Notes under the pieces: generated by a model
Seen by the model: only the letters and a program-made list of their open reading frames with translations
The model's database searches: none
Told to the model about the DNA's origin: nothing
Translations under genes and position numbers: made by a program
Source: a virus
Strand: one strand, 5' to 3'
Virus record (IMG/VR): IMGVR_UViG_3300026510_000013
Location: 1-29,474 of that record
Length of the DNA: 29,474 bases
Shown: positions 14,308 through 28,882 of the stretch, in pieces
Layout: each line of letters starts with the position of its first letter
Numbering within the stretch: position 1 is the stretch's first letter

Positions 14308-15576
14308 ATGGCAAAATCATTTAAGCAAAAAATAACAGATAAACTCCTGTCACTTGTTCCAGATAATAGAGTAAGAGTAGAAGCTGCTTTGCGAAGTACT
14401 AAAAAAGGTAAAACGTTATCTGGCGAAATAAAACGAAGCTCTGTTTTGTTTCAGGCTAAAAACTTAAAAGATTGGAAAGATGCTATAGCTCTTGCTACTG
14501 ATGGTGAAAATCCTGATTTTATATTGTTGGCGGAATTATACCAGAATTTACTGTTAGATGGGCATACAATGTCCGTTATTGAGAGTAGAGTAATGCGTGT
14601 ACTACGTTCTAAATTCGTTTTAGTTACCGAAAATGGCGATGATGTGCCAGAATTAAAAAAATTATTTGAAAGACCGTGGTTTGAGGAATTTTTAAAACAA
14701 GCTTTATTATCTAAATTTACTGGTGTAAAAGTATTAGAACTTTTTGATTTAGATGATAATTTAGAATTAACCGATGTTACTCTAATACCGTTAGAACACA
14801 CTAAACCGAATAAAGGCATAATTATACAAAACGCAGGCGATGATAAAGGGTGGAACTATAAAGAGGGTAATTTATCACGGTTTTACATTCAAATAGGTAA
14901 AGATACCGATCTTGGAATGTTGAGTGATTTAGCACCGCTTATTTTAGCAAAAAAAATGAGTATGGGCGCTTGGCTTGATTGGATTGAAAAATACGGTATA
15001 GCAATGAGATACGCTATTACGGATAACATGACTACTGATAGACAAGAAGAATTATTTGATATGTTAATGAGCTCCATTAGTAATCAAGTAGCAGTATTAC
15101 AAGGTAAGGAACAGATTGTAATATCAGATACGCCTAACACAGATTCTTATAAAGTATTTTTAGAATTTTTAAAATATTTAGATAACTCTATTTCTAAAAG
15201 AGTTCTAGGGCAAACAATGACCACAGAAGATGGTAGCTCTAGAAGCCAAGCCGAAGTGCATGAGAAAGTAGCCAATGACAGGCATGAAAGCGATAAATTA
15301 TTTGCGCAATATATTATCAATAAAGTTTTAATTCCTAAATTATTGGAAATTAGTAGCTTTTATTCGCCCCTACAAGGTATTACTTTTGATTGGGACGAAA
15401 GTGAACAAATGGCCACCGATACTTTTATTGACAAAGCCGTAGCATTAAGTGGTGCAGGGTTTGAATTAGATTACAAGCTGTTAGCCGAAAAATCTGGAAT
15501 GCCAATTATTGGGTTTTCTAAAATAATATCAGAGCCAATTGTTAAGGAAAATGCCCCTAAAAAAAAAAGCCAATAG
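14308..15576 (+). CDS. Portal protein, Mu gp29/DUF935-like
   Basis: A 422-residue protein of the DUF935 family, the Mu-type portal through which DNA enters and leaves the head. Recognisable are DGHTMSVIESRVMRVLRSKF (around residues 80-100), the FLKQALLSKFTGVKVLELFD helix, and LGQTMTTEDGSSRSQAEVHEKV (about 305-326), the region before the C-terminal clip. The end of the frame is APKKKSQ followed by TAG and includes an A10 tract (15559-15568), discussed with the F gene. Confidence 0.85.
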   Translation: MAKSFKQKITDKLLSLVPDNRVRVEAALRSTKKGKTLSGEIKRSSVLFQAKNLKDWKDAIALATDGENPDFILLAELYQNLLLDGHTMSVIESRVMRVLRSKFVLVTENGDDVPELKKLFERPWFEEFLKQALLSKFTGVKVLELFDLDDNLELTDVTLIPLEHTKPNKGIIIQNAGDDKGWNYKEGNLSRFYIQIGKDTDLGMLSDLAPLILAKKMSMGAWLDWIEKYGIAMRYAITDNMTTDRQEELFDMLMSSISNQVAVLQGKEQIVISDTPNTDSYKVFLEFLKYLDNSISKRVLGQTMTTEDGSSRSQAEVHEKVANDRHESDKLFAQYIINKVLIPKLLEISSFYSPLQGITFDWDESEQMATDTFIDKAVALSGAGFELDYKLLAEKSGMPIIGFSKIISEPIVKENAPKKKSQ

Positions 15577-16871
15577 TTAAGGCAATATCTATAGCTAGCT
15601 ATTACGAAAATGTAAATGCGCCTAGTTGTGGGCATAGCCACAGTCATAGCGAAGTATTAGCCGTTGATTTAAGCCACTGGACTGCCACAATAAATAAGAT
15701 TGCCAAAGGTTTGTTTAAAGGAACTATTAAACCAAGCCACTTAAATTCATTTATTGTTACAGAAACTTATAATAATTTAGAAAAAGGCGCAGCAATAGGC
15801 TATGGTAATGATTGGGTAAAGTTCGACTCTGTAAATTCTAAAACAGTACAACAATTAAAATCTAATTTATATTTATTTAGTGGCGCTAAATGTTATGGGC
15901 AACTTATGGATATGAATAAGCAGCTTGTGGATGCTAATGGTAAAATTAGAACTTTTAACGAGTTCAAAAAGAAGATGTTTGAAATACACAAAAATTACAA
16001 TCGTAATTACCTGCAGGCAGAATACCAAACCGCCAAGGCATCAGCACAAAGAGCCAGAGAATGGCAAACTTTTGAGAACCAAAAACATTTATACCCAAAT
16101 TTAAAATACAAAACCATTGGCGATGATAGAGTGCGTGATGAACATGCCGCCCTTAATGGAATTATAAAAAGTATTGATGACCCTTTTTGGGATATCCATT
16201 ACCCACCAAACGGGTGGCGATGCAGGTGCTCTGTTACTAGTACTAAAAGTAATATTACCAAAAGTGATATTAAGATTAAAATTGACAAACGTTTTTCGCA
16301 AAATGTGGGTAAAACAAAACAGATATTTAACCAGGAGAATCACCCTTATTTTTCTATTCCAAAAAGTGATCAAAGAGAGGTTAGTAAAACACTAGAAAAT
16401 TGGAAAGAAAAATACCCACAATACAAACTAATCTATAAGGCAAAAAATGGCTCAAACCTACATGTTAGTGCTTTTGCAGATAATAGTACACGTGAGTTAG
16501 TTGCGAATTATGAGGTCGCAAAAACTATTGTTCATACACTTAAATTTGACGTAAAACTTACACCACATGTCTTAATTGATAAAGTTAAAAATCCTGAATA
16601 TTTAATTAAAGGTAAAGTTTCCGATAGAAAAACGCCAATCGGAAAAAACTTTAGAAGCTTATTAACTAAGGCTAGAAATCAAAAAGTTGAAATACTTGTA
16701 ATTGATTTGAATCATAGCATAATTACACAGCAAAAAATAATTAATCAACTAGCAGGTAGCTTTAAAAATAAAAGCAGCTACCCAACAATAAAGGAAATTA
16801 TTTTTGTATCTAAAGATAGAAAAAAAGTGACACACTTAAAACGATCAGAAATAAAAAAGAGCAAAGAATAA
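15551..16871 (+). CDS. Head morphogenesis protein, Mu F-like, with C-terminal nuclease-like domain; start out of frame
   Basis: The F body is open from 15561 to the stop at 16869-16871. The Mu F-type core is clear: ARQ-like helices, then GDDRVRDEHAALNG and DDPFWDIHYPPNGWRCRC, the family signature. The first 50 residues of this frame (KPIVKAISIASYYENV... with CGHSHSHS) look coding but contain no ATG, GTG or TTG until 15711. ATG 15551 would give MPLKKKPIVKAI... if the A-tract were nine. From about 16430 the protein has an extra domain (NPEYLIKGKVSDRKTP, LVIDLNHS, EIIFVSKD) resembling CdiA C-terminal tRNase-type toxins. Length would be 439 residues with A9. Confidence 0.8.
15559..15568 (+). repeat. 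A10 homopolymer at the portal/F junction
   Basis: Ten A residues occupy the last codons of the portal gene and the first codons after ATG 15551, the natural start of the F gene. With ten A the F start is out of frame with the F body; with nine A it would be in frame. A -1 slip on this tract would instead fuse portal and F. It is therefore a site where sequence error, slippage or phase variation would change which head proteins are made. Confidence 0.8.
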
Positions 16872-16882
16872 ATCCTTTGCTC
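16853..16882 (-). terminator. Intrinsic terminator of the candidate small RNA
   Basis: In minus-strand RNA GAGCAAAG pairs with CUUUGCUC (8 bp, arms 16882-16875 and 16866-16859) around an 8-base loop, followed directly by six U (16858-16853). On the plus strand no U-run follows, so it works only for leftward transcription. The F stop codon is in the loop. Confidence 0.75.
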
Positions 16883-16912
16883 ATTAACGTGGTTCGAGAT
16901 TTCTCAAGAAGC
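16853..16912 (-). ncRNA. Candidate small RNA opposite the head operon
   Basis: A transcript of about 60 bases is predicted from a minus-strand promoter (boxes at 16945-16948 and 16919-16926) to an intrinsic terminator (16882-16853). The 5' part can fold as AACG...CGUU enclosing UUGAG-AAAU-CUCGA. The RNA lies in the F-G gap and overlaps the last codons of F in antisense. Nothing about its target can be said. The evidence is the coincidence of a consensus promoter, a foldable body and a canonical terminator in 100 bases of otherwise unneeded intergenic sequence. Confidence 0.6.
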
Positions 16913-16918
16913 GTTATG

Positions 16919-16948
16919 CAAAGTTACAAAAAATAATTAAATGTCAAA
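16919..16948 (-). promoter_or_regulatory. Promoter of the candidate small RNA
   Basis: Minus strand TTTG (16948-16945), an 18-base spacer, and TAACTTTG (16926-16919). Both boxes match the Bacteroidetes consensus TTTG and TAnnTTTG exactly, and the spacer is within the range reported for Flavobacterium. It points away from the G gene, whose ATG is at 16941, so its -33 box lies over the first codons of G. Confidence 0.65.
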
Positions 16949-17465
16949 AATAAATAAAACACCAGACTTTTTAAAAATGGGCAAACAGCTCATTGCAGAT
17001 ATTCGTATTGTTGCCGAAAAGGAAGGTGTTGATTTTTTTAAAAGTTCATTTGATAATGAAGGCTGGACAGATGGTGGTTTTGAAAAATGGCAAAAAAGAA
17101 CAGACACTATTAACTATAAAATATTGAGTAAAACAGGCTATTTAAAAAATTCAATCCAAGTTTTTAATAGCAGTAATGAGCAAATCGTTTTTGGATCTGA
17201 TGCTGAGTATGCCGAAATACATAATAATGGTGGAACCGTTACCATACCAATTACGGCAAAATCACGAAAGTACTTTTGGTTTATGTTTAAAGCTACTGGC
17301 GTGGAACGTTGGAAGTGGATGGCACTTAGCAAAAAGGAAAGCATGAGCTTTGTTATGCCAAAAAGACAATTTATAGGCGAAAGTCAAAGCTTTATTAATT
17401 ATTTAGACGAGGAACTAAAGGAGCTTATTAATTCACGATTTAAACAGCTAAAAAACACAATTTAA
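16941..17465 (+). CDS. Virion morphogenesis protein, Mu gpG-like
   Basis: A 174-residue protein with the gpG pattern: FEKWQKRTD, LSKTGYLKNSIQVF (the 'TG.L..S' motif), then GSDAEYAEIHNNGG (the 'YA..H..G' motif) and MPKRQFIGES near the C-terminus ('P.R.F.G'). Relatives (Mu gpG, P2 gpS) act in head-tail joining or tail completion. It follows the F-like gene after a 69-base gap that holds the candidate small RNA, the largest gap in this operon. Confidence 0.8.
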   Translation: MSKINKTPDFLKMGKQLIADIRIVAEKEGVDFFKSSFDNEGWTDGGFEKWQKRTDTINYKILSKTGYLKNSIQVFNSSNEQIVFGSDAEYAEIHNNGGTVTIPITAKSRKYFWFMFKATGVERWKWMALSKKESMSFVMPKRQFIGESQSFINYLDEELKELINSRFKQLKNTI

Positions 17466-28130: not shown

Positions 28131-28155
28131 ATTTGTCCTTAATTAGAGGACAAAT
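28131..28155 (-). promoter_or_regulatory. Palindromic operator candidate over the early start site
   Basis: ATTTGTCCT (28131-28139), seven bases, then AGGACAAAT (28147-28155): a perfect 9-bp palindrome with 7-bp spacer, which includes part of the -7 box and the predicted start site. A bound repressor or Ner-like protein would block early transcription. Confidence 0.6.
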
Positions 28156-28181
28156 ATATTAACAATATTTGAATTATCAAA
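28151..28181 (-). promoter_or_regulatory. Early promoter (leftward)
   Basis: Minus strand TTTG (28181-28178), spacer of exactly 19 bases, TATATTTG (28158-28151). Both boxes and the spacing match the Bacteroidetes consensus. It drives the transposase/early operon, with a transcript start near 28145. Confidence 0.8.
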
Positions 28182-28219: not shown

Positions 28220-28882
28220 ATGGAAAAGACAATAATTTTAGACAAAATAAAAAACCACTTAAACATCAATACTAATAAGGTTTTTGCGGAATTTTTAGGT
28301 ATAAAACCTACCACCTTATCAATGTGGCATAAAAGAAACACTTTTGACATTGAACTAATATTCAAAAAATGTGAATTTATTAACGCAAATTGGCTTTTAA
28401 CAGGAAAAGAGCCAATGCTAAAAAATATTGATAAAACTAATATTGTTAATGAACCTAGCGAGATTTATCAAGTATTAAAAAAAACAAACTCAATACCTTT
28501 AATACCGACAGAGGCATTTGCGGGATTAGGTGGCGGAGAAGTAAGTATTAAGGAAAGTGATATTCAGGACCACTATGTTGTACCAGAATTTACCAATGTA
28601 GATTTTATGATACGTATAAAAGGGTCGTCAATGTATCCAAAGTATAATAGTGGTGATGTAGTTGCATGTAAAATGATAACTGATAGTAATTTTATTCAAT
28701 GGAATAAAGTCCATGTTATTTCAAGTACAATTCAAGGCACATTAATAAAACGTTTAAAAAAAAGCACAAAAGAAAATCATTTATTAGCGGTATCAGATAA
28801 TCCGAGTTATGATCCTTTTGATATCCCAGAAGATGAAATAATAAACATTGCACTTGTCACTGGAGTAATACGCCTAGAATAA
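28220..28882 (+). CDS. Phage repressor, CI-like with S24 peptidase domain
   Basis: A 220-residue repressor. Residues about 20-60 form a helix-turn-helix (FAEFLGIKPTTLSMWHKRN) and about 95-215 a LexA/CI-type S24 domain with a probable cleavage site Ala101-Gly102 (AFAGLGG), Ser137 in KGSSMYPKYNSGD and Lys178 in TLIKRLK. Such repressors cleave themselves during the SOS response, so this phage is expected to be inducible by DNA damage, unlike Mu itself. The leader is AT-rich, with no clear consensus promoter; control by the operators just upstream is likely. Confidence 0.85.
   Translation: MEKTIILDKIKNHLNINTNKVFAEFLGIKPTTLSMWHKRNTFDIELIFKKCEFINANWLLTGKEPMLKNIDKTNIVNEPSEIYQVLKKTNSIPLIPTEAFAGLGGGEVSIKESDIQDHYVVPEFTNVDFMIRIKGSSMYPKYNSGDVVACKMITDSNFIQWNKVHVISSTIQGTLIKRLKKSTKENHLLAVSDNPSYDPFDIPEDEIINIALVTGVIRLE

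Follow-up and report, generated by a model that had tools for sequence, protein, structure and literature searches.

A putative RNA antitoxin gene opposite the MuF-nuclease gene of Bacteroidota phages

The gap between two head genes, F and G, of a Mu-like viral genome carries a compact leftward gene for a small RNA, and we propose that this RNA is likely an antitoxin (immunity RNA) for the putative nuclease toxin at the C terminus of F. The stretch of viral DNA analysed, here called the window, comprises 29,474 nt (IMG/VR record IMGVR_UViG_3300026510_000013, positions 1 to 29,474). Comparison of sequences brings out the architecture of an RNA gene, a family fold with covarying base pairs, a link between the RNA and an intact nuclease, and the use of the same slot by convergent protein genes.

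The head protein F and its nuclease domain

The slot that holds the RNA gene is bounded by the following protein-coding features.

15561–16871, plus strand: F, a MuF head protein with a C-terminal nuclease (PF04233, 5.9e-20; PF18451, 4.8e-8; TIGR01641); the frame is open from 15561 and the start is approximate.
16404–16868, plus strand: CdiA_C / PD-(D/E)XK nuclease domain of F, a putative toxin, with the catalytic Glu codon at 16596–16598 and the catalytic Asp codon at 16623–16625.
16941–17465, plus strand: G, a Phage_tail_S virion morphogenesis protein (PF05069, 4.9e-7), starting just behind the RNA promoter.

A Gp36-like gene and a portal gene (PF06074, directly before F) precede F and the Phage_tail_S gene follows it, an order that identifies a Mu-like head operon; by F, the nearest sequenced phage is Winogradskyella phage Peternella_1, of the Winoviridae. 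The CdiA_C match (PF18451) covers the last ~150 residues of F. A profile built from 31 relatives matches CdiA-CT of Burkholderia pseudomallei 1026b (4g6v) at 2.6e-7, and the AlphaFold2 model of the domain (pLDDT 91.4) finds the same structure in Foldseek with an E value of 1.3e-7 and aligns with it at a Z of 13.2 over 120 residues, the active-site acids NPE...D of F falling on NPD...D of 4g6v with equal spacing. The 1026b toxin belongs to the PD-(D/E)XK superfamily and acts as a tRNase (PMC9086364). With a MuF domain at its N terminus and a domain common to polymorphic toxins at its C terminus, F would belong to the MuF polymorphic toxins, its toxicity being putative.

A leftward RNA gene in the F–G gap

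The gap itself contains these features, all on the minus strand.

16919–16948, minus strand: promoter, read from the sequence, with TTTG at 16948–16945, an 18-nt spacer and the −7 element TAACTTTG at 16926–16919.
16853–16917, minus strand: small RNA of ~62 nt, fold z −4.4; covariation was computed on relatives, not on the window RNA.
16885–16916, minus strand: 5′ hairpin, with outer helix UAACG/CGUUA (16916–16912 with 16889–16885) and inner hairpin 16910–16892.
16853–16882, minus strand: intrinsic terminator with a 10-bp stem, 4-nt loop and U6; equivalents are found in relatives.

Every part of the leftward small-RNA gene envisaged by the original prediction, with its own promoter and terminator, is thus present in the sequence. 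The promoter, TTTG-N18-TAACTTTG, is of the Bacteroidetes type. The terminator reads GAGCAAAGGA-UUUA-UUCUUUGCUC at 16882–16859, then U6 at 16858–16853, and its stem overlaps the final codons of F (stop at 16869–16871); it ranks strongest among 7 candidates in 19 kb. Its U6 is as predicted, and its stem has 10 pairs rather than the 8 first given. The 5′ end, originally placed near 16912, more likely lies at about 16917–16913, because the outer helix seen across the family starts ~3 nt past TTTG. The whole RNA folds with a dG of −19.6 (z −4.4; equalled by 0 of 200 shuffles), and the 5′ hairpin, 16916–16885, reaches a z of −3.6 against shuffles when folded alone. The promoter pattern by itself, found 5 times in the window against 2.6 expected, is not significant; its significance comes from relatives, in which promoter and terminator occur jointly in 26 of 29 comparable gaps with CdiA_C on F, against 0.46 expected from dinucleotide shuffles. 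Elsewhere in the window, a second exact promoter, TTTG-N19-TATATTTG at 28151–28181 on the minus strand, lies to the left of and divergent from a rightward ORF (28220–28882) and is a candidate early or repressor promoter region.

The product of the slot would be a structured RNA rather than a protein. There is no ORF of at least 40 aa in the F–G gap of the window, in agreement with the earlier view that no protein is needed to explain it, and a hidden peptide in the slots was rejected: the longest closed frame has 29 codons, most have 17 or fewer, and the base pairs covary. Rfam gave nothing above the curated threshold for the window or for 20 relatives; a known RNA family was likewise rejected, the matches of a permissive Rfam search also lying far under threshold, and a DNA search of annotated phages gave no match. 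No paper describing the RNA was found in a literature search of partial coverage, so that in these sources the small RNA is, as had been supposed, undescribed.

Presence and absence of the RNA in relatives

From viral and genome contigs having both F and G, 66 distinct F–G regions were collected, which fall into four patterns. Where MuF lacks an extension at its C terminus, F abuts or overlaps G, leaving no slot (L005, L043, L101, L079 and L082). Where MuF carries CdiA_C, a gap mostly of 64–115 nt contains two minus-strand signals, a TAnnTTTG and, where F stops, a terminator. Of the 29 relatives with CdiA_C on F, 27 have TAnnTTTG in the corresponding position, most commonly ~8 nt before G. A third pattern has MuF with other or unassigned C termini (ART in L072; Gln_amidase in L080 and others). 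The fourth, CdiA_C without the RNA, is seen only at L030, L104 and L051, where other residues stand in for the catalytic Glu of NPE (KST, FPY).

By alignment, the catalytic acid is kept at all 28 distinct RNA-bearing loci and the toxin is dead at all 3 loci without the RNA. An exact count places this link at 1 in 4495 with L030, L104 and L051 taken as independent, and at ~1 in 435 with L030 and L104 counted as a single event, the link being made by three loci, two of them related. The usual lysine of DxK is missing from L002, L018 and L020, where the RNA is present; the active relative E479 likewise lacks this lysine (PMC9086364). L030 is the cultured Peternella_1 itself (MT732475), and two small rightward ORFs replace the RNA in its slot.

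Phages that keep F and G and lack the promoter and terminator had been named beforehand as evidence that would count against the RNA gene. Such phages exist (L005, L043 and L101), but their F has no nuclease domain, and their lack of the RNA therefore points to an antitoxin and does not refute the gene.

Proteins and other RNAs in the same slot

At ten loci of the third pattern, the same minus-strand slot and TAnnTTTG lead to an ORF of 64–93 aa, most of these ORFs ending no more than 20 nt from the F stop. Because those of L066 and L070 are 45% identical, those of L067 and L078 are 57% identical and that of L055 matches DUF7675 (8.5e-32), at least several are real genes. From their position, we infer that these small proteins are immunity proteins; in several of these loci, beside the other MuF proteins, no known immunity domain was found in the slot ORF. 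At L055 (4270–4500), the convergent 76-aa DUF7675 protein stands next to a MuF protein with an unassigned C terminus, and DUF7675 is a candidate immunity protein.

Some slots are laid out differently. The slots of L007 (1915–2123) and L042 (4188–4468) each contain a pair of leftward promoter–hairpin units and may encode two immunity RNAs apiece. L085 (3357–3479) and L092 (2237–2343) have a longer slot RNA (>100 nt) with the common stretch GGUGSGRCGAUCGCYCGU, unlike the core family, adjoining CdiA_C-like C termini. At L009 (2922–2992), L074 (3987–4057), L081 (2132–2209), L083 (4098–4150) and L088 (4068–4117), where the MuF C termini are LPD3-like or unassigned, a leftward TAnnTTTG precedes a single long U-tailed hairpin at the F stop, perhaps a further class of RNA antitoxin.

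Fold of the RNA family

A covariance-model alignment of 19 members, a set that does not include the window RNA, shows 17 of 21 pairs to covary, that is, to have changed on both sides. Paired cells amount to 95.2%, compared with 80% in shuffled and 42–52% in slid controls. The core consists of a helix, a 2x2 internal loop, a second helix and a loop. Of 36 RNAs, 18 have a GC/AA internal loop and 5 a UC/UU one, 23 in total, compared with 0.4% in shuffles, and this loop stays while the helices around it vary freely. A single core hairpin is present in the window and at most loci, and two tandem cores only in L100.

The window RNA can be written in the family register as UUC-[UU]-GA-GAAA-UC-[UC]-GAA, from which its minimum-energy fold differs in pairing UUGAG with CUCGA. 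Neither covariance model detected it. The full-length model, R1, when run on whole genomes, matched mostly ordinary TTCG terminators and was replaced by R2, made of the core plus promoter. Since both models are silent and the fold differs, membership of the window RNA in the family is argued from its position, promoter and terminator and from intermediates L003, L099 (of Polaribacter marinus MSW13) and L024, which form with it a divergent group having the outer helix (U)AACG/CGUU(A).

Could the gap hold only promoter-like and terminator-like sequence with no function? By itself the promoter pattern is no rarity in the window, but the joint occurrence of both signals in relatives, the covariation and the fold of the whole RNA make chance hardly credible.

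Coevolution of the RNA with the nuclease

Across 25 loci, RNA distance correlates with distance in the nuclease at 0.51, in the MuF N-terminal part (MuF-N) at 0.30 and in G at 0.14. In partial Mantel tests the nuclease retains 0.456 (p 0.0005), with MuF-N at 0.06 and G at −0.16. On these comparisons the RNA sequence tracks the nuclease domain and not its neighbours, MuF-N or G. The window and L002 illustrate a swap: they are 80% identical in G, 71% in MuF-N and 43% in the nuclease, and their RNAs are unrelated by eye. A nuclease indel matching the class of internal loop (Fisher 1.4e-5) was rejected as a further sign of this kind; on the tree it comes down to 3–4 changes and loses its significance.

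The original prediction had offered regulation of F, G, the host or the early/late switch as the task of the RNA. Leftward transcription does run into F from a promoter near G, and convergent promoters can interfere. However, complementarity of the RNA to the start region and body of F is the same for own pairs as for pairs swapped with other phages, there is no coevolution with G, and the RNA is missing from relatives that have the same F–G order and no nuclease domain. The excess of complementarity toward G is a trivial overlap in cis, and the short overlap of the terminator with the F messenger is complementary by position. With both presence and sequence following the nuclease, an RNA that controls F, G, host genes or the lytic switch by antisense pairing or in trans has little probability, and regulation no longer stands as the main job.

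Scarcely more probable is a role in the virion, in which the RNA, bound by the nuclease-like domain of F, would serve head assembly or packaging much like the pRNA of phi29-like motors, with no antitoxin involved. RNA and domain do evolve as one module, the domain is RNase-like and F is a head protein. Yet close relatives often have a MuF protein with neither domain nor RNA, and the RNA goes with the catalytic acid, not with the fold alone; a separate leftward promoter of host type and the exchange of the slot with protein genes would be unexpected for such a partner.

Further loci and orphan RNAs

Further loci came from searches of ~790 Bacteroidota genome draws and of annotated phages. An RNA-like slot hairpin with a promoter lies beside an intact nuclease in L120, L129, L131, L133, L134, L136, L137 and L139, and the GC/AA core recurs in L120, L129, L133 and L134; L135 and L138, read by eye, have a U-tailed hairpin without TAnnTTTG. 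Among sequenced isolates, Elizabethkingia phage TCUEAP3 (L121) combines a strong slot RNA with a C terminus that by eye is nuclease-like.

In a covariance search of Flavobacteriaceae, of the kind proposed at the outset, R2 gave four matches in 149 genomes, L114, L116, L100 and L115. L114 adjoins a MuF-CdiA_C gene and L116 is probably a chance match. L100 and L115 are orphan RNAs with no toxin gene alongside, a placement that fits action in trans. In Mariniflexile gromovii (L100, 7284–7414), a Mu-like prophage without F ends with two tandem cores under a single TATATTTG promoter, a repeat layout resembling that of type III antitoxins. A full-length family RNA, with promoter, core and terminator, lies within a Cas9 CRISPR locus (L115, 1470–1551; L117, 9795–10076; genome G057). 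The L115 RNA sits between the CRISPR array and a degenerate repeat resembling a tracrRNA anti-repeat, and is possibly an orphan immunity RNA retained as defence.

Proposed function and relation to known systems

Because the slot is exchanged with small proteins and the RNA is lost with the catalytic acid, neutralization of the toxin by the RNA seems probable. Direct binding to the nuclease domain, argued from the conserved internal loop, the coevolution with the domain and the orphans, is a less secure step that we nonetheless favour. In this proposal, the host-type promoter would make the ~62-nt RNA independently of the late operon, and expression in lysogens is expected because the promoter is of that type. 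The 5′ hairpin would bind and block the PD-(D/E)XK domain, probably as a tRNA-like substrate decoy, and a prophage-bearing cell would be shielded against leaky synthesis of F as well as against nuclease imported by related virions. Late in infection, rightward transcription across the slot would oppose RNA synthesis, so that active F could be packaged and delivered. The decoy mode and delivery by virions are the weak elements of this scheme.

Type I antisense antitoxins such as RatA of txpA/RatA and SR4 of bsrG/SR4 are convergent RNAs, often prophage-borne, that overlap the 3′ end of a gene for a small membrane peptide, the toxin, and act on its messenger. The MuF RNA shares the convergent placement and the overlap with the final codons of F, and by analogy it could pair with the F messenger at its 3′ end and silence it through antisense pairing and RNase III, leaving the protein untouched. 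Loss of the RNA with dead toxins would be expected of any antitoxin, this kind included. But the overlap is short and inconstant (the L006 terminator lies entirely beyond the F stop), non-coding sequence lies opposite the core hairpin and the conserved internal loop within it, the RNA sequence tracks the nuclease protein, the orphans have no messenger in cis, and such an RNA would be powerless against toxin protein imported by a virion. Unlike type I, therefore, the evidence points to a protein target rather than a messenger; the antisense mode accounts for fewer facts than a direct antitoxin and is unlikely, though the strongest of the alternatives.

An antitoxin that binds its toxin directly recalls type III systems, in which the toxin is in most cases a ribonuclease. 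As in ToxIN, CptIN, TenpIN, AvcID (PMC10511110) and AbiF of C. difficile (PMC12373285), the neutralizer proposed to bind directly is a small structured RNA that has a terminator of its own. A type III antitoxin, however, is a tandem-repeat RNA whose gene precedes the toxin gene on one strand and is separated from it by a terminator, whereas the MuF RNA is downstream and convergent, has its own promoter and is usually one hairpin, and the toxin here is a PD-(D/E)XK domain fused to a phage head protein. Because gene order and repeat features fail, we do not file it under type III.

The setting is that of the MuF polymorphic toxins (PMC5576092; Bxa, PMC11699363; Apk2), in which a temperate-phage MuF protein carries a C-terminal toxin domain and the cognate element is directly downstream. 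The immunity factors described for MuF toxins are proteins (PMC5576092, PMC11699363); here, by contrast, an RNA read from the opposite strand occupies the slot, which has no immunity protein gene. For polymorphic toxins in general, too, every immunity factor of which a description was found is a protein. The F nuclease is like CdiA-CT/CdiI of B. pseudomallei 1026b (4g6v) in fold and in the spacing of its two active-site acids, but that toxin is delivered by contact-dependent inhibition and has a protein immunity factor, CdiI (PMC9086364). No description of RNA immunity for polymorphic toxins was found in a literature search with partial coverage.

On a broader reading, towards which we lean slightly, Bacteroidota phages would neutralize MuF nuclease toxins with dedicated structured RNAs of several unrelated folds, placed in the slot of immunity proteins and found as orphans too. 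As part of that joint reading, the folds would include the CdiA_C core, the long L085/L092 type and possibly the RNAs beside LPD3-like C termini. If the proposal is true, an RNA can serve as the immunity factor of a polymorphic toxin, exchangeable with a protein in one slot, which would link polymorphic toxins to type III systems and would explain the many MuF-nuclease genes that seem to have no immunity gene. With an RNA antidote to hand, it could also be asked cleanly if MuF toxins truly serve as weapons.
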